Positions 5,364 through 61,673 of a stretch of 64,000 nucleotides of DNA are shown piece by piece. Each line of letters opens with the position of its first letter. The stretch's first letter is position 1. The stretch lies in assembly GCA_945862235.1 (NCBI GenBank), contig CAMAYU010000001.1, positions 1 through 64,000 on the forward strand, read 5' to 3'. The stretch is from Schlesneria paludicola DSM 18645 (lineage in GTDB: Bacteria; Planctomycetota; Planctomycetia; Planctomycetales; Planctomycetaceae). The translations under genes and the position numbers were made by a program. The notes under the pieces were generated by a model. That model was not told where the DNA came from and did not search any database. It saw nothing but the letters and a program-made list of their open reading frames with translations.

Positions 5364-6833
<1,470 letters not shown>

Positions 6834-17079: not shown

Positions 17080-19863
17080 ATGCCAATCACCGGCCGGTCT
17101 CTCGTCGAGTGTGCCAATGACCTTTCTGCCTGGCGTGTACGAACTCGCTTGCCAGTACCACTTCACAGCCAATACCTGACGCGGCACAAAGTGAGAGGTT
17201 TCCGAGCGGGGTGGCGTAAGCCCCCTGGCTCTTCTCAAGCGGGCTTACGCCCAAAAACCGGGGGGCTTACGCCACCCCGCTCAGATGTCTCATCACTGAC
17301 CGCGCGAGGTCTGCTGGTGCCGTTGATCGCGGCGCTGGCAATGATCTGCGCGAGCGATGTTCTCGCGCAGGATGAGCCGCCTGCGGTGAAGCTGTCCGTC
17401 GTGCGCGCGACAACCGGAGGTGTCCATGCCTACGCTCCCAATCGATGGGGGCTGCTCCATGTGAATCTGATCAACACGCAGGAGACGCCACGCGACTTGC
17501 TGACCGCGACGTACTTTGACGGTGCCCCCACGATGCAGTTCGGTCAGCGGCTGCGCTTACCCGCGAAGTCGCTGCTACGAGTTGTCCAGCCCGTCTTGAT
17601 TCCGCCGCTGAATCCCGATCAGGGACGGGCACTGAACTTTCAAACGCTCGTGTTGGATGCGGGACATTCCGGTGACGAAGGAGCAGCCCACGAAGTGCTG
17701 CTGCGTGACGAAGCCGGTTTGCTCCGCCACGACGGCGCGATCTTGGTGACGCACAACCCACGCATCACGGGACTCATCAACGAGTCGTTGCCGGAACAGG
17801 AACATCTGGCGGTTGAAGTGACGGAACTGGTTTCTGCGAGTCGCGTCAGCCAGGACTTGGGACGCCAGATCGCTCTTCCCTCGGGCGAGCAACTCGCGCA
17901 CGAAGAGTTCAGTCTGCACGCGCTCGACCATTTGGTTCTGGCGGGGAATCATCTGGTCGAGGACGCGGCCGCATTGGCTTCGATCCGGCGTTGGTTGTTC
18001 GGCGGAGGACATCTGTGGATGATGCTCGACCGCACCGATCCTCGTCTGTTGGAAATGCTGGTGGGAGATCGGTTCAACGGCCACGTCGTTGATCGCGTGG
18101 GATTAAATTCGGTCCAGCTCTTTGAGGTGCATCCGACCGGCACGAAGTCGCTGGGTGAGCCGGTCGAATACGAAACGCCGGTCGATCTGGTCCGCGTCGT
18201 CGTGCAGGATGTCGAAGTCGAGAACGAAGTGAACGGCTGGCCCGCCGCGTTTTGGGTTCCGTGCGGCGACGGTCGCTTGTTGGTGACGACACTCGGGGCG
18301 CGCGGATGGATGGTTTCTCGCCATGATGAGCCGAAGCCACCGCCGCGACGCGGTCTCGCTCGCGAGACGAATGCGGACGCATTGAGTGCCGATTCTGCGG
18401 AGACTGCATTTCGAGCGAACAGGGCGATGTCCAGTTTGGCATCCGATCTCTTCTTGTCGGGCCGACCTGACGAGTTGATCTCCACGGCGGCGCTCGAAAC
18501 GCAGGTCGGGGAATACATCGGGTACTCGGTGCCGTCGCGCGGCGTCGTGCTGGGGGCGTTGGCGGTACTGGTGATGCTGATGCTGGGTATCGGTACGTGT
18601 CTGTATGCCCGGAGTGCGGTCGAACACATGGGCTGGATTGGTCCGTTGCTAGCCGTCCTGTTCGGCGCGGCGTTGCTGCAATTGGGCCGGTCGAATCGAC
18701 ACGCAATCGCCGACGCTGTTGCGGCCATGCAGTTCGTACAGCCGATCCCTGGCACGGACGATGTCCGCCGTCGCGGAGTCGTGGCGACGTACTACCGTGA
18801 AGGAAGTCAACAACCGATTCGAGCCACCGCCGGTGGACGACTGATGCCCGACATGACCGGTCTCGACGGAACCGTCCGTCGCATGGTTTGGACAGACATC
18901 GAATCGTGGCAGTGGGAGAACGTGCCGCAGGCGGCTGGACAGCACAGCGCGGCGTTCCAAGTGTCGGCAAGTGTGGTCCCGCGCATTGAGGCACGCGCGA
19001 CGTTCGACCACACCGGGCTGGTCGGTCGTGTCGTCGGAGTCACGCAACTTGAGGACGGAGTGTTGGCCACACGCTCGGGGCGCATGGGCGTCGATTTTCA
19101 AGACGAGGGATCGTTTGTCGTTCGCACCGAGAATGTCTTCGGGCGAGAACAGTTTCTCGCGGCAGACATGCTGGCCGACGAACAGGATCGCCGCCGCCGC
19201 ACACTCGAAAAACTCCTCTCCAACAAACTGCGGCGCGACTATCCCGAGCAGCCGACGTTGCTAGCGTGGAGCGACCGGCCGAACACGAACTTCCAATTTG
19301 GTGAGGGCCTGCAATCGCGCGGCTCCACGCTGATGGCCATTCCGCTGGTTTTGGAACGATCACAGATCGGTCGCGAGATCGCCATTCCATCCCCGTGGCT
19401 ACCGTATCTCAACACGCTTGCCCCCGATGGGACGCAGCCGTCCGCCATGTGGAACAACCAACTCAAGGAATGGCAGGAGCGGGCCGCGCCGAGTTCCGCT
19501 TGGCTGCGTTTCCAAGTCCCGCGCGAGTTGCTGCCGCTGAAGGCGACACACGCCCGGATGGTCATCCAAGTCACCGGTCCCGTCGGGCGGTTGGAGTTAC
19601 TTGGCCAGCGCGACGGTGCGGCGCACTCGATCCAGACCGTGATTGATCCTGTCGGACTTTTGACGCTGGAAATCACCGACCCCGCGCTCCTAACCGTTGC
19701 GAGCGATGGCAGCCTTGTCCTCGGCATCAACGCGGGCGACACGGATCAGGCCGAGATCGCGTTGGGAAAGAAGGACGCCAGTGCGAAGATCAACTACTGG
19801 CGTCTCGAATCACTCGGACTTCAATTGTGGGCGACTCCCACCGCACCACCCACCAAGGAATGA
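17080..19863 (+). CDS. Large exported/membrane protein adjoining an ABC transporter; 5' end overlaps repeat family 1
   Basis: ORF open to 19863; hydrophobic signal GLLVPLIAALAMICASDVLAQ directly after the palindromic repeat; TM region VVLGALAVLVMLMLGIGTCLYA. True start uncertain, probably within or after the repeat. Confidence 0.75.
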   Translation: MPITGRSLVECANDLSAWRVRTRLPVPLHSQYLTRHKVRGFRAGWRKPPGSSQAGLRPKTGGLTPPRSDVSSLTARGLLVPLIAALAMICASDVLAQDEPPAVKLSVVRATTGGVHAYAPNRWGLLHVNLINTQETPRDLLTATYFDGAPTMQFGQRLRLPAKSLLRVVQPVLIPPLNPDQGRALNFQTLVLDAGHSGDEGAAHEVLLRDEAGLLRHDGAILVTHNPRITGLINESLPEQEHLAVEVTELVSASRVSQDLGRQIALPSGEQLAHEEFSLHALDHLVLAGNHLVEDAAALASIRRWLFGGGHLWMMLDRTDPRLLEMLVGDRFNGHVVDRVGLNSVQLFEVHPTGTKSLGEPVEYETPVDLVRVVVQDVEVENEVNGWPAAFWVPCGDGRLLVTTLGARGWMVSRHDEPKPPPRRGLARETNADALSADSAETAFRANRAMSSLASDLFLSGRPDELISTAALETQVGEYIGYSVPSRGVVLGALAVLVMLMLGIGTCLYARSAVEHMGWIGPLLAVLFGAALLQLGRSNRHAIADAVAAMQFVQPIPGTDDVRRRGVVATYYREGSQQPIRATAGGRLMPDMTGLDGTVRRMVWTDIESWQWENVPQAAGQHSAAFQVSASVVPRIEARATFDHTGLVGRVVGVTQLEDGVLATRSGRMGVDFQDEGSFVVRTENVFGREQFLAADMLADEQDRRRRTLEKLLSNKLRRDYPEQPTLLAWSDRPNTNFQFGEGLQSRGSTLMAIPLVLERSQIGREIAIPSPWLPYLNTLAPDGTQPSAMWNNQLKEWQERAAPSSAWLRFQVPRELLPLKATHARMVIQVTGPVGRLELLGQRDGAAHSIQTVIDPVGLLTLEITDPALLTVASDGSLVLGINAGDTDQAEIALGKKDASAKINYWRLESLGLQLWATPTAPPTKE
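17191..17310. repeat. Palindromic repeat family 1 (copy B)
   Basis: TTTCCGAGCGGGGTGGCGTAAGCCCCCTGGCTCTTCTCAAGCGGGCTTACGCCCAAAAACCGGGGGGCTTACGCCACCCCGCTCAGATGTCTCATCA. Confidence 0.93.
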
Positions 19864-22586: not shown

Positions 22587-22700
22587 TCCGAGCGGGGTGG
22601 CGTCAGCCCCCTGGTTCTTGGGCGTCCGCCCGTTTTCAATGAACCAGGGGGCTGACGCCACCCCGCTTAGAAATGCCTCACGCTTGGCCGCGTGAGGTTT
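22587..22700. repeat. Palindromic repeat family 1 (copy C)
   Basis: CCGAGCGGGGTGGCGTCAGCCCCCTGGTTCTTGGGCG...GAACCAGGGGGCTGACGCCACCCCGCTTAGAAATGCCTCACGC. Confidence 0.93.
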
Positions 22701-22728
22701 CATTCCCGTTTTTTTGTTACTGCGACGA

Positions 22729-22780
22729 CCGGGCTTACGCCCCAGAACGAGGGGGCTGACGCCGCCCCGCTCGGAAGCCC
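22729..22780. repeat. Palindromic repeat family 1 (partial copy D)
   Basis: GGGCTTACGCCCCAGAACGAGGGGGCTGACGCCGCCCCGCTCGGAAGCCC, adjacent to copy C. Confidence 0.85.
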
Positions 22781-27860: not shown

Positions 27861-27979
27861 ATGAAACATCTGAGCGGGGCGGCGTCAGCCCCCCGGTTCT
27901 TCCGAAGAGGGCTGACGCCCAGGAACCGGGGGGCTGACGCCACCCCGCTCAGAAATCGCTCACGCTGTGCCGCATGAGG
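27861..27979. repeat. Palindromic repeat family 1 (copy E)
   Basis: GAAACATCTGAGCGGGGCGGCGTCAGCCCCCCGGTTCTT...GAACCGGGGGGCTGACGCCACCCCGCTCAGAAATCGCTCACGC. Confidence 0.93.
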
Positions 27980-34444: not shown

Positions 34445-34469
34445 CCGTGTGTTCCTCTCTCGTGGCCGC

Positions 34470-34545
34470 AGTTCCATCCGCTTCCGACAGTTCCATCCGC
34501 TTCCGACGGTTCCATCCGCTTCCGACGGTTCCATCCGCTTCCGAA
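34470..34545. repeat. 19-bp tandem repeat x4 between ybaB and recR
   Basis: GTTCCATCCGCTTCCGACR repeated at 34471, 34490, 34509, 34528. Confidence 0.93.
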
Positions 34546-34552
34546 TTGTCCG

Positions 34553-34909
34553 TCAGGTTCGCCCCAACCCCATTCCCGCCAGCGCATCTCCCAAACCGGG
34601 GATGTTGATTCCACCTGTCAGTTGCTGCATTGCATTCATCTGTGTTTCGCGAATCTTTTCGAGGGCTTGGTTTGTCGCGGAGCAGATGAGTTCTTCGAGC
34701 AGCGCACGGTCTCCCGACTGCATCAGTGCCGAGTCGATCCGACAACTCAGGACTTTCATCTGGCCGTTCACTTCGACTGTAACCATCCCGCCGCCCGCCT
34801 GGCCCTCGCTGCGGAGGTTCGCCATGCGGTCTTTCATTTCCTGAACCTTGCCGCTCATTCCCTGAGCTTGCTTCATCAGTGAAGCCATTGCCGACAGTTC
34901 TTTGAACAT
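34553..34909 (-). CDS. YbaB/EbfC family nucleoid-associated protein
   Basis: MASLMKQAQGMSGKVQEMKDRMANLRSEGQAGGGMVTVEVNGQMKVLSCRID. Confidence 0.95.
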   Translation of the reverse strand: MFKELSAMASLMKQAQGMSGKVQEMKDRMANLRSEGQAGGGMVTVEVNGQMKVLSCRIDSALMQSGDRALLEELICSATNQALEKIRETQMNAMQQLTGGINIPGLGDALAGMGLGRT

Positions 34910-36801: not shown

Positions 36802-36874
36802 CGTTGTCGCCTTGTTTGCCTAGTGATTCGTTCGCCCGTGAAGGCGAATGGCAGAAATGGTCTGGCTGCCGATC

Positions 36875-36935
36875 GAAGCCTGACGCGCAAGTGAAGGACC
36901 GTTATCAAGAGTTCTTCGCTTGCGCGTCAGGCTTC
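36875..36935. repeat. Inverted repeat family 5 (copy 1)
   Basis: GAAGCCTGACGCGCAAGTGAAG...CTTCGCTTGCGCGTCAGGCTTC; second copy at 61614-61673. Confidence 0.88.
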
Positions 36936-41977: not shown

Positions 41978-43545
41978 GCGACCCCTCACTGAGTGAGCAG
42001 TTTGAGAAATGGCTCGTCGGCTCGCTGCTGGCTAATCCGAAATTTATTGTTGAAGCCCGTGGCCTTGAACCGCTCGCCTTCAATCGTGATGACCTGCGGG
42101 CGATCTTTCGAGCGATGCTGGCGATCGACTCGGAAGGTAAGCCGCTCGATTTGGTGTCCGTGGCTGTGCGGCTGGAAGAGGATGGCACGCTCGGCGAAGT
42201 GGGCGGCCCGCTGGTCCTCAAGTCGTTGGCCGATGACGCGCCCTACGTGATTCACGTCGGCGAGTGGTGCGAGAAGATTCGGGACACGGCAGAGCGGCGG
42301 CGGTTGGCTTGTGATGCTCTGGCCGTCAGCCGCATGGCCGGTGACGCGGGTGTCTCAACGGAGTCACTACGAGATCGTCTGTTGGCTTCTGCCAACAATC
42401 TCTCACACAACGGCAAGCCGCGCACACACGCTACGGCTGAAGCCATCGTCGTGAGGCTATGTGACGTTGAAGAACAAGAGGTCGAATGGCTCTGGCCGAA
42501 CCGCATCCCGCTAGGAAAGCTGACGCTGCTTGCAGGGGATCCCGGATTGGGGAAGTCGTTCGTCACGGTGGACATGGCGGCGAGGGTCTCGACGGGAGCG
42601 GGGTGGCCCGACTGCTACAGCCAGAATCAGCCTATTGGCTCGGTCATCATGTTCAACTGCGAAGACGACATCGCCGACACTGTGCTACCACGGCTCAAGC
42701 GTGCTGGTGGCGATCCGAGCAAAGTGATCGCTCTGCAAGGCGTCACAATGATCGACGCCGAGACGGGCCATCGTCGTCAACGCGGATTCTCACTGGACGC
42801 GGACCTGCCCAAGCTGATCGAAGTTTTGGAAGAGAACCGAGACGTGCGGCTCGTCGTGATAGACCCGGTGAGCGCGTACTGCGGCGCGACTGACAGTCAC
42901 AAGAACGCGGACATTCGCGCAATGCTGGCTCCGATGGCCGACATGGCGAGCAAGTATCGGGTTGCCATCGTCATGGTGACGCATCTCTCCAAGGGGAGCG
43001 GCGGCAAGGCCGTCTATCGGGCAATGGGATCACTCGCGTTTGCGGCGGCGGCTCGCGCTGTGTGGCATGTCGCGAAAGACCACGACGATGACAAGCGACG
43101 CCTGATCCTGTTGGCGAAGATCAACATTTCCGAGGAATCGACCGGCTTAGCCTATCGCTTGCAGGACGGGGCGGTCTGCTGGGAAGAGACTCCCATTGTG
43201 ATGACCGCCGACGAACATTTGGAAAAAGAGACTCAACCCGAACGGAAGCCGCGCGGCAACGGCGAACAGGGTCAGGCCGTGCAACAGGTAAAAGAATGGC
43301 TGGTCGAGAAACTGACGGGATGTTCCATGCTGGCCAAGACGGTCAAGCAATTGGCCGACGATGCCGACATCGCTCCGGCGACACTCAAGCGGGCTAAACG
43401 GTTGGCGGCTGTGAAGTCCGAACGGATCGGATTCGGCCAAGCATCCGTTGTCTGGTGGACGCTGCCATCGGATGACACTGAGTCGGTTCCCGCAGACGTG
43501 GATGAGGCCGAAGCCGCTCGTCTGTTCCCAAGCGGCTCACCATAG
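41974..43545 (+). CDS. DnaB-N domain plus RepA-like AAA ATPase (element replication/helicase protein)
   Basis: EQFEKWLVGSLLANPKFIVEARGLEPLAFNRDDLRAIFRAM; LTLLAGDPGLGKSFVTVDMAARV; VRLVVIDPVSAYCG; VAIVMVTHLSKG. Confidence 0.88.
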   Translation: MSDPSLSEQFEKWLVGSLLANPKFIVEARGLEPLAFNRDDLRAIFRAMLAIDSEGKPLDLVSVAVRLEEDGTLGEVGGPLVLKSLADDAPYVIHVGEWCEKIRDTAERRRLACDALAVSRMAGDAGVSTESLRDRLLASANNLSHNGKPRTHATAEAIVVRLCDVEEQEVEWLWPNRIPLGKLTLLAGDPGLGKSFVTVDMAARVSTGAGWPDCYSQNQPIGSVIMFNCEDDIADTVLPRLKRAGGDPSKVIALQGVTMIDAETGHRRQRGFSLDADLPKLIEVLEENRDVRLVVIDPVSAYCGATDSHKNADIRAMLAPMADMASKYRVAIVMVTHLSKGSGGKAVYRAMGSLAFAAAARAVWHVAKDHDDDKRRLILLAKINISEESTGLAYRLQDGAVCWEETPIVMTADEHLEKETQPERKPRGNGEQGQAVQQVKEWLVEKLTGCSMLAKTVKQLADDADIAPATLKRAKRLAAVKSERIGFGQASVVWWTLPSDDTESVPADVDEAEAARLFPSGSP

Positions 43546-43654
43546 AGGATCACCAGCCCGTCTCTCTCTCGGACCTGATCCCCTATGAGAAAGCCAGCTT
43601 GTTTTGCCATAGGGGATCAACTGTGAGGGAGAGACGGGAACTTGATCCCCTATG
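43541..43654. promoter_or_regulatory. Iteron-like inverted repeat region between rep-like gene and integrase
   Basis: CATAGAGGATC, GATCCCCTATG, CATAGGGGATC, GATCCCCTATG plus CCCGTCTCTCTCTC / GGAGAGACGGG. Confidence 0.85.
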
Positions 43655-43838
43655 GGAGCGACTGCTCTCCGCACGATCAACACGACGCAAGATCGACTGC
43701 GATGCCTTGCGACTCATTGCGGCTGGCGCGCCGCTCCGGCCGATGGTAGCATCTGTTCACCTTTGACCGGCGGCGGTGTGGCGGGAACTGAGAAGCTCGC
43801 CCGCTGCCGTCCGGTCTCTTCTCGGAAAGGTTCTTACG

Positions 43839-48709: not shown

Positions 48710-50485
48710 CTACCGCCGTTGATGAGCACCACCGCGTCCTCGAGAGCCACTATTTCCACGGCCGCGCGGCTCGGGACCGTGAGAACGAACGAGGTACGAA
48801 ATGGCCTCTTCCCATGTGGGAATCCCCTCGTAGTTCACGGGAGCGAGCGGCTCTTCATCGACAGGAGCGACCGCAGGTCGAACGGCCCGACCGCCGCCAC
48901 TGTGACCGGCAACAGCGTCTTCGCCATCGTCGTCATCATCCTGTTCATCGTCTTCATGGTCGTCTTCGCCTGCCTTCTCACCACTTACCAACGCAGCGAC
49001 CGGTGAAGGTTGCTCATCAGATCGCTTGCGACCGCGACGACGGCGGCGACGTGGGCGACGCTTTTCACCGTCCTCGTTGTTCTCGTCGTCCTCCTCTTCA
49101 GTGCTGGCGGAACGCGAGTCAGCGGTCTCCTCCTCGTCAGACTGAGTTTCATCAGACTGAGAGTCGTCATCGCTTCCGAAGCCGAGCATGTCTTCGCTGT
49201 CGTTGTCGTCATCGTCCGAATCACTCAATTCCGCGCCGCCATCGGCGGCGATTTCGGCTTCCGTGCGACGACCGCGTCCACCACGTCGTCGCCGGCGGCG
49301 ACGGCGTGGGCGACGATCTTCGTCGCTCGGCTCATCAGACGAACTCGTCTCCCCGTCAGCGGCCTCTTCGCCGTCGTCCTCTTCCGCGAACTCTTGGAAC
49401 AAGTCGGACGCGAACACATCGTCGTCATCGACAGGTTCCGTCTGCCGCGCGACGGGGGCCGGCTTGCGTGCGGGAACCTCGGACCTCACGGAAGGTGCGG
49501 GGCTGCGACGTGGTTTGGGTTCGTCATCCAAGCCTGCTGCGAACCCCTCGTCAGAACCAGCCGAAGTTGCTTGAGGAGGCAATGATCGTGGCGGGCGAGT
49601 TTCATCTCCAGAAGCCTTTTGAGGAGGTCGCCGATCCGATCGTGGTGCCTCACTTCGCTCGCGCGGGGCATCACTACGCTCCGCACGCGGGGCATCACTA
49701 CGCTCCGCACGCGGGGCATCACCACGCGATTCGCTTCGGCGTCGCGGACCTCGGTCCGACCTTCCTGGAGCAGGAACGCCATCGGCCGGAGCGACTTCTT
49801 CACGCAGAACGGGGGCCGGGCGTGCGTCCACTTCATCACGATTGGCTCGTTCGCGCCGAGGCTGTTCGGCACGCGGTGCCTGTTCACGAGGAGGAGCCTC
49901 GCGACGCGCGCCCCCTCGGTCACGATCGCGTGGCCGTTGTTCACGTCCTGCATCACGATCGCGTGGTGGTCCGTCGTTGTCTCGGCGAGCGGGGCGACCT
50001 CCGCCTCGCGAAGCAGCCACATCGGACTGAGGGCGTGCAACCGGAGCCTTATTCGGCTCGTCGAAATTCCAGCTTTCGAGGGCGTCCCAAATGTCGCGGT
50101 CACTGTCCTCGCGTGCGCGTTTCGATGGCTCACGTTCGCGAGCTGGCGCGTCGTCCGCATCCCGTTCGGCAGCGACTTCTCGTCGTTCAGGAGCAACGGC
50201 CTTCTTCTCTGTGACGGGCGTGTCCTCAGGAAACGAAAGGTCTTCCTCGGGGAAAGACAGGTCCGGCTCGGAAGCCTGTTCGGCAACGCGGGCCTTCGAC
50301 CCCGAAACGGCCTCGGGGGAAGGTGACACTTCGGCCGGGATCGACTTGGCTGTGGGCGGCTCATCGTCGGGGAGGTCGAAGTCGTCGTCGGCTCCTCCGA
50401 ATTGAATGCCCAGCAGATCGGAGGCAAGCTTGCCCCACGAATCGTCGTCTTTGGTTTTAGAAGCGGAAGGAGGTTGTTTGGCCAT
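48710..50485 (-). CDS. Long, highly charged, low-complexity (probably disordered) protein
   Basis: MAKQPPSASKTKDDDSWGKLASDLLGIQFGGADDDFDLPDDEPP; Arg/Asp/Glu-rich repeats; folded-looking tail NYEGIPTWEEAISYLVRSH. Confidence 0.8.
   Translation of the reverse strand: MAKQPPSASKTKDDDSWGKLASDLLGIQFGGADDDFDLPDDEPPTAKSIPAEVSPSPEAVSGSKARVAEQASEPDLSFPEEDLSFPEDTPVTEKKAVAPERREVAAERDADDAPAREREPSKRAREDSDRDIWDALESWNFDEPNKAPVARPQSDVAASRGGGRPARRDNDGPPRDRDAGREQRPRDRDRGGARREAPPREQAPRAEQPRRERANRDEVDARPAPVLREEVAPADGVPAPGRSDRGPRRRSESRGDAPRAERSDAPRAERSDAPRERSEAPRSDRRPPQKASGDETRPPRSLPPQATSAGSDEGFAAGLDDEPKPRRSPAPSVRSEVPARKPAPVARQTEPVDDDDVFASDLFQEFAEEDDGEEAADGETSSSDEPSDEDRRPRRRRRRRRGGRGRRTEAEIAADGGAELSDSDDDDNDSEDMLGFGSDDDSQSDETQSDEEETADSRSASTEEEDDENNEDGEKRRPRRRRRRGRKRSDEQPSPVAALVSGEKAGEDDHEDDEQDDDDDGEDAVAGHSGGGRAVRPAVAPVDEEPLAPVNYEGIPTWEEAISYLVRSHGPEPRGRGNSGSRGRGGAHQRR
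49650..49730. repeat. 24-bp tandem repeat inside the charged ORF
   Basis: TCACTACGCTCCGCACGCGGGGCA units, encoding (SDAPRAER)n. Confidence 0.88.
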
Positions 50486-53425: not shown

Positions 53426-53550
53426 TTGTGAGATGCTTCCGAGCGGGGCGCCGTCAGCCCCCCGGTTCTTTACAAGAGGGCTTACGCCCAAGAACCGGGA
53501 GGCTGACGCCACCCCGCTCTGATGTCTCATCAACTGCCGTTTGAGGTCTA
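53426..53550. repeat. Palindromic repeat family 1 (copy F)
   Basis: TTCCGAGCGGGGCGCCGTCAGCCCCCCGGTTCTTTACAAGAGGGCTTACGCCCAAGAACCGGGAGGCTGACGCCACCCCGCTCTGATGTCTCATCA. Confidence 0.93.
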
Positions 53551-57478: not shown

Positions 57479-57572
57479 TAGGACCGGCGCAACAATCACT
57501 GTCCCCTCGTGGCGGATGCTGCCAGCATCCGAGCCGACGCTGGCAGCGTCGGCCACGACAGTGATTGCTGCG
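57479..57572. repeat. Palindromic intergenic repeat, family 2 (copy 2, inverted relative to copy 1)
   Basis: GGACCGGCGCAACAATCACTGTCCCCTCGTGGCGGATGCTGCCAGCATCCGAGCCGACGCTGGCAGCGTCGGCCACGACAGTGATTGCTGCG. Confidence 0.92.
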
Positions 57573-61562: not shown

Positions 61563-61673
61563 CTTGCCGCTCACAGAAAGTTAGGCGAGCGGCAAGAAAA
61601 AGCTTACTCATCAAAGCCTGACGCGCAAGCGAAGGGTGCTCGATGTCCTAGGTTTCGCTTGCGCGTCAGGCTT
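61563..61673. repeat. Two adjacent inverted repeats, the second being family 5 copy 2
   Basis: CTTGCCGCTC..GAGCGGCAAG (61563-61596), then AAGCCTGACGCGCAAGCGAAG..TTCGCTTGCGCGTCAGGCTT (61614-61673). Confidence 0.85.

Follow-up and report, generated by a model that had tools for sequence, protein, structure and literature searches.

The palindromic repeats described here are best understood as REPINs, that is, inverted doublets of REP sequences, whose REP type is tied to a subfamily of Y1 HUH transposases (subfamily B) carried by members of the same planctomycete family; we put the probability of this reading at roughly 0.8. It is built on direct observation of the anatomy and copy number of the repeats, of empty sites in relatives, of the conservation of doublets, of the association between hairpin and enzyme, and of conserved catalytic residues in the enzyme.

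The initial annotation described a repeat family of six full or partial copies in the window, the whole stretch of 64,000 nucleotides that was analysed, and the family itself is borne out. The arm pattern GAGCGGGGTGGCGTNAGC, at three or fewer mismatches, finds nine arms in the window, whereas dinucleotide shuffles averaged 0.33 and never gave nine; an order-3 Markov simulation of the window gave 0.05 arms and 0 pairs, against the nine arms and four pairs observed. The count of six needs amendment: four copies are full and one is a half copy (22730-22775), but the copy at 5924 is a variant, and there is an extra, probable half copy at 6501-6540. The copies and associated features in the window are as follows.

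5364-6833, + strand: bioA-like aminotransferase gene (PF00202, E 3.8e-95; BioA structures, E 4e-116)
5924-6007: variant REPIN, in frame inside bioA; arms 94% complementary, hairpin z -9.5
6501-6540: probable degenerate half copy, in bioA; 85% identity to 5978-6017
17173-17203, + strand: outer hairpin A (flanks compared over 50 copies)
17201-17285: full P1 REPIN core, 85 bp with TCY/RGA ends; fold z -8.7 with flanks
17283-17310, - strand: outer hairpin B (flanks compared over 50 copies)
22587-22671: full P1 REPIN core, 85 bp; fold z -12.3; 14 relatives without a copy at the syntenic site
22669-22701, - strand: outer hairpin, A-like by its sequence
22730-22775: half copy, consisting of the mini-hairpin and one inverted REP arm
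27869-27953: full P1 REPIN core, 85 bp; intergenic
53438-53522: full P1 REPIN core, 85 bp; in a divergent intergenic region

The arms of the variant at 5924-6007 read CGGGGGAC-GTGA-GTCCCCCG (CGGGG-GAC-GTGA-GTC-CCCCG), not GGCGTCAGCC. The likeness at 6501-6540 may be coincidental, as G009 and G010 have a loop of similar length there. Other repeats share the window. A different palindromic repeat (CTAAGGATCAGCGCAGCAATCACTGTCGTGGCCGACGCTGCCAGCGTC...) lies at 1688-1794 and 57507-57558, and also adjoins a P2 arm elsewhere (L057, near position 800). A GCCTGACGCGCAAGCGAAG hairpin family at 36872-36935 and 61610-61673 resembles the repeat that flanks the Y1 gene at C52, discussed below. An abutting inverted repeat of 58 nt, 76% complementary, occupies 43540-43655 at the end of an ORF stopping at 43545, and tandem repeats are found at 34452-34565 (19 bp unit GTTCCATCCGCTTCCGACG) and 49662-49733 (24 bp unit CGCGGGGCATCACTACGCTCCGCA).

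The copy at 17201-17285 illustrates the plan of the element: a REP arm, the mini-hairpin GGGCTTACGCCC and an inverted REP arm. The commonest core is 79 bp long, running from GAGC to GCTC, to which the TCY/RGA ends are added. The arm of this family, P1, is GAGCGGGG; that of a sister family, P2, is GAGCCGGG, and P2 pairs mostly measure 65-72 bp. Folded singly, an arm is a REP-type hairpin: its 5' foot is YGAG, its stem has about 5 + 3 bp and frequently carries a bulge of one base, and its loop is GTNA (P1, TCYGAG-CGGGG-(t/c)-GGC-GTMA-GCC-CCCCG; P2, GGTGAG-CCGGG-(t)-GGC-GTMA-GCC-CCCGG). The motif of the arms recurs in the central GGGCTTACGCCC, a small hairpin in itself, and the complete element folds into one long hairpin (DNA fold z -8 to -12). 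Two further hairpins, A (TACCTCACGCGGCACAAAGTGAGAGGTTTCC) and B (TACCTCGCGCGGTCAGTGATGAGACATCT), related to each other yet distinct, occur outside the core; their inner parts are the extended flanks that the initial annotation had correctly noticed. Among 50 P1 cores, 20 had A at one end and B at the other, AA and BB did not occur, and 19 had neither A nor B, so that the full order of outer A, REP, mini-hairpin, inverted REP and outer B, as in a BIME, is present in 20 of 50 copies. The unit is thus a REPIN/BIME mosaic with a direction. In a 1.60 Mb sample of the 6.8 Mb host genome, from which the pair and context statistics are drawn, 253 arms form 89 inverted pairs (about 80-90), establishing the inverted REP doublet as the unit. 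The earlier description of the family as REP/BIME-like is therefore upheld, the arm being a short hairpin, of high copy number and mostly extragenic. The canonical GTAG/GTGG foot is absent, its place being taken by YGAG (TCTGAG or TCCGAG; GGTGAG in P2). Of 268 P1/P2 arms, 22 are joined to a third palindromic family, P3 (CAATGGCACTCACTTTG ... GAGCGGCACGGCGCTAGCCGCC), always at one position, after GGCGTNAGCCC (e.g., L067:9292-9453 and L050:12355-12580), which suggests site-specific nesting of one REPIN-like element inside another; in two relatives (L253, L288), class-3-A Y1 genes are flanked by P3-type arms.

The family extends well beyond this locus, and confinement to it, one of the conditions by which the initial annotation would have been refuted, is excluded. 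In the host assembly (6.83 Mb, 377 contigs, 97% complete), 348 + 309 = 657 arms were found at three or fewer mismatches, compared with 1 + 2 = 3 for a reversed control pattern. At two or fewer mismatches the host has 501 arms, 14 genomes of the same genus have 0-31, and seven other planctomycete genomes have 18-695; the arm pattern was also found in further Planctomycetes genomes. This distribution is one of patchy, lineage-specific expansion. Searches of plasmid and phage collections gave no match. Because the second batch of sampled host stretches was partly picked for contigs with listed copies, the copy density in the sample is biased upwards.

Arms in pairs are far better conserved than single arms, with 1.18 and 3.22 mismatches to the consensus, respectively (p = 5e-17), just as REPIN doublets are better conserved than singlets (Bertels and Rainey, 2011; PMC3116915). 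The initial annotation had also taken compensatory variation as a sign of selection on secondary structure, and this was not supported. Over 30 aligned cores, 90.9% of the cells of the long stem are paired and the covariation score exceeds that of all shuffles (0/500); pairs changed on both sides, however, number five, against 5.4 in shuffles. Most of the covariation signal is due to columns 12/74, 18/68 and 26/60, and two of the covarying sites are the bulge and loop of the single-arm hairpin and so cannot reflect selection on that hairpin. Within single-arm hairpins there were three two-sided pairs versus 0.6 in shuffles, but these amount to only three cells, and the compensatory swaps between subfamilies (8-26 for P1 versus P2, 14-21 within P2) are few events. 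Copying of both arms together as a unit explains joint variation at a few subfamily sites equally well.

This bears on the suggestion that the repeats are kept as functional RNA or DNA structures, such as bidirectional terminators, mRNA stabilisers or protein-binding sites, with compensatory changes being selected. Terminator, stabiliser and binding roles are known for the REPs of other bacteria as secondary functions. Such a role would suit the very stable predicted hairpins and the joint variation of the arms, along with the intergenic location of 51 of 60 P1 pairs (27% of the sequence being intergenic by a simple codon-based gene finder). Within that space, however, the copies follow the intergenic sequence rather than convergent gene ends (37 codirectional, 8 convergent and 6 divergent gaps), and a terminator role was rejected for want of clear enrichment at convergent ends. 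Two-sided changes no more frequent than in shuffles, copy numbers that differ hundreds-fold within the genus, copies inside coding genes and an Rfam search that returned no match all add to the case against, and we consider maintenance for such functions improbable.

Empty sites are evident in relatives. The copy at 22587 lies between an upstream ABC-2 gene and a downstream HEAT-repeat gene that are adjacent in 14 relatives; the junction is 253 bp in the host and -13 to 184 bp, with no arms, in the relatives, some of which carry other palindromes there. Likewise, the segment of about 26 residues encoded at 5924-6007 in the host is missing from bioA homologues (G010, G012 and others), and part of it falls outside the alignment with the best-matching BioA structure. 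Elsewhere in the host, in-frame copies within predicted genes number at least five for P1 and one for P2, as found by a search that detects stop-free frames only. The P1 copies include the following.

L070:9839-9950: in-frame P1 copy, pyridine-nucleotide-disulphide oxidoreductase (dehydrogenase) gene
L385:8028-8106: in-frame P1 copy, kdtA-like gene
L400:6253-6355: in-frame P1 copy, alpha/beta hydrolase gene
L402:7479-7557: in-frame P1 copy, O-antigen ligase gene
L409:3894-3981: in-frame P1 copy, sulfatase gene

In the L070 dehydrogenase, L409 sulfatase, L400 alpha/beta hydrolase and L043 PSD1 proteins, the domains run on beyond the element, and five P1 copies in unrelated genes share a common peptide frame, SERGG...E(P/L)GGL. 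The Ldh_2 gene at L397 appears to be truncated by a copy. The Rickettsia palindromic elements (RPE) are palindromes inserted in protein genes. Likened by description only, P1 resembles them in being palindromic and in having copies in protein genes, and differs in that its copies are mostly intergenic.

The connection with a transposase comes from relatives of the host. A first survey covered 96 Y1 loci from the host and ten other genomes, with subfamily B defined by alignment. Genes of this subfamily are present in several relatives, and palindromes of the P1/P2 plan adjoin them. A signature was formulated (foot [CT]GA[GA], a 5 bp stem with at least four pairs, an optional bulge, 3 bp, and loop GTNA), which has a density of 8.8 per 10 kb over 18 B loci (16/18 positive) and of 0.20-0.27 per 10 kb at class-3-A, other Y1 and unrelated loci of the same genomes. 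As the signature had been made after viewing the first B loci, it was then frozen for an out-of-sample test on 19 new B loci; it was found at 16 of these, in 13 cases on both sides of the gene, compared with 4 of 68 control Y1 loci (p = 3.4e-11). In related genomes, then, the cognate Y1 gene is flanked by this REP type. Searches for B were positive in 35 of 170 genomes family-wide and, with only part of the candidates scored, in 1 of 246 phylum-wide; the family-wide search was the source of the 19 new loci.

Individual loci show how close the match to the host families can be. At L415, a subfamily-B gene lies between two exact P2 arms, and in G065 a B gene is surrounded by three arms that differ from P1 at no more than two positions, in a genome with a total of 18 such arms in 9.7 Mb. 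Among the loci examined, no exact P1 arm was found beside a Y1 gene, only P2 and P1-like arms. Copy number does not track the gene, as two related genomes with 314 and 176 arms have no B gene. One B clade (support 88/95) has GAGCC-type REPs, like P2, in 9 of 9 members; the tree does not settle whether all B genes form one clade. Across B loci the foot and loop are constant and the stems widely different, a view of covariation that is biased by the pairing the signature demands. In G012 (C24; L236/L297), a subfamily-B gene, flanked by P1-like arms and apparently without its N-terminus, lies directly upstream of bioA; bioA is the neighbour of the B gene in G012 and the carrier of the P1 variant in the window.

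The B proteins retain an invariant HxH motif, Y159 and K118. They score 27-39 bits against PF01797, and 38-39 bits against the NCBIfam REP transposase model, for which the cut-off is 80. The predicted structure of a B protein (pLDDT 89) matches ISDra2, IS608 and the REP-bound TnpA 4er8, so that the class 3 hallmark of an HUH and Y1 fold with catalytic HxH and tyrosine is present, the fold being predicted.

That these elements are instead MITEs of a DDE-type insertion sequence, their arms being long terminal inverted repeats, is very unlikely. Near-perfect inverted arms of about 33 bp, a total length of about 80 bp, interspersion and empty orthologous sites would all be expected of MITEs, but no target-site duplication was found at the REPINs at any tested offset or length, and inspection of 838 kb revealed no inverted arms around a transposase-sized insert. 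Moreover, single arms fold as REP hairpins, and it is Y1 HUH genes that the same hairpin type flanks.

Within the host genome, the search for a partner gave a different result from that in relatives. The initial annotation had proposed looking for a matching RAYT. In the host, none of the six Y1_Tnp (PF01797) hits has a P1 repeat within 1.5 kb; the matching enzyme found in relatives is not a canonical RAYT but a member of a divergent, class-3-like Y1 subfamily. Neither a subfamily-B gene nor a cognate Y1 gene with P1 at its sides was found in the host's 97%-complete assembly, in which a locus could have been missed. A canonical RAYT next to the repeat was rejected for the host, where the Y1 genes have other repeat families beside them. 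Those at C10, C195 and C52 (L032, L033 and L034) are flanked by GGGGTCAGGTGGTTCAAAGTTCATTTTTCGCC, GTAGGGTGCGTTGAGTCTTCGAAACGCACC and AGCCCGACGCGCAAGCGAGGGCT, respectively, each a repeat family abundant in the host, and the method is therefore able to detect links between repeats and genes. The protein at C10 is extended by a long additional region at its C-terminus. Subfamily A was likewise rejected as the P1 partner, the sole A gene in the host being flanked by the AGCCCGACGCGCAAGCG family instead. Spread or homogenisation without a transposase of their own, through recombination or through slippage of replication at the palindromes, would agree with the lack of a cognate enzyme in the host and with the agreement of the arms of one element at variable loop and bulge positions, but is scarcely credible given dispersal, with defined ends, to hundreds of unrelated sites, the sites left empty in relatives and a hairpin type tightly tied to one enzyme subfamily.

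With the repeats taken as REPINs tied to subfamily B, their relation to known systems can be considered. Like the published REPINs (PMC3116915), they are inverted REP doublets, extragenic and dispersed, better conserved as doublets, and linked to a Y1 gene by proximity. They differ in having a YGAG foot and GTNA loop in place of a GTAG-type foot, in a third, central mini-hairpin and two distinct outer hairpins, and in that the cognate enzyme was not found in the P1 host genome. The class 3 TnpA_Y1 proteins are rare Y1 HUH proteins, mainly of Planctomycetes, that are flanked by non-GTAG hairpins, which can be of high copy number (about 600 in Solibacter usitatus); their published motifs are NHVH and YV[VI][AENY]EQ, with a CnGA foot (Quentin et al., 2018; PMC6006769). 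Subfamily B shares with class 3 a W[TA]-like motif and a Y...Q motif, and differs in having T/DHVH, Y[VI]xxQ, a YGAR foot and a GTNA loop. As compared by published motifs, the class 3 motifs and foot fit the sister subfamily A (G000:C52) better than B, and the P1 foot (CTGA or CCGA, then G) agrees with both the class 3 and the subfamily-B descriptions. The GTAG/CGTC-tagged REPs and TIRtrons (Di Nocera et al., 2013; PMC3733652) similarly include Planctomycetes families, copies within genes, and some RAYT-like genes flanked by other repeats, but the foot of the P1 hairpin has neither GTAG nor CGTC tags. In the open full-text literature on REPIN/RAYT and Planctomycetes, no relevant work on such repeats or enzymes was found beyond that cited here.

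A mechanism can be proposed by analogy with the TnpA of IS200/IS605. At a single-stranded DNA stage, for example on the lagging strand, the subfamily-B TnpA would bind the REP hairpins, its tyrosine would cut near the foot and excise the inverted pair, and the pair would be rejoined elsewhere with no target duplication. Copies that disrupt genes would be lost, leaving intergenic copies and some in-frame genic ones. We infer binding, cleavage and transposition by the B TnpA, as well as enzyme loss in the host, where the P1 family is apparently orphaned. The host enzyme may have been lost, its locus may be unassembled, or P1 may be driven in trans by another enzyme; an unassembled locus is possible because repeats break assemblies, and many arms in related genomes lie at contig ends.

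More tentatively, and with the odds somewhat against so broad a statement, subfamily B and its REPs of YGAR foot and GTNA loop may constitute an undescribed coevolving system centred on one planctomycete family, unlike both the GTAG RAYTs and the published class 3, in which orphan REPINs of several hundred copies outlast their enzyme and donate in-frame peptides to many genes. Most known REP/RAYT systems have a GTAG foot; another foot and loop are here tied to a divergent Y1 subfamily. The many diverged hairpin-enzyme pairs in one bacterial family are a natural data set for the joint change of HUH enzymes and hairpins, and, in a genome that has hundreds of REPINs but no enzyme that can be recognised, the persistence of REPINs after transposase loss becomes directly testable. 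The in-frame copies, finally, illustrate how proteins acquire additional peptide segments from elements of this kind.
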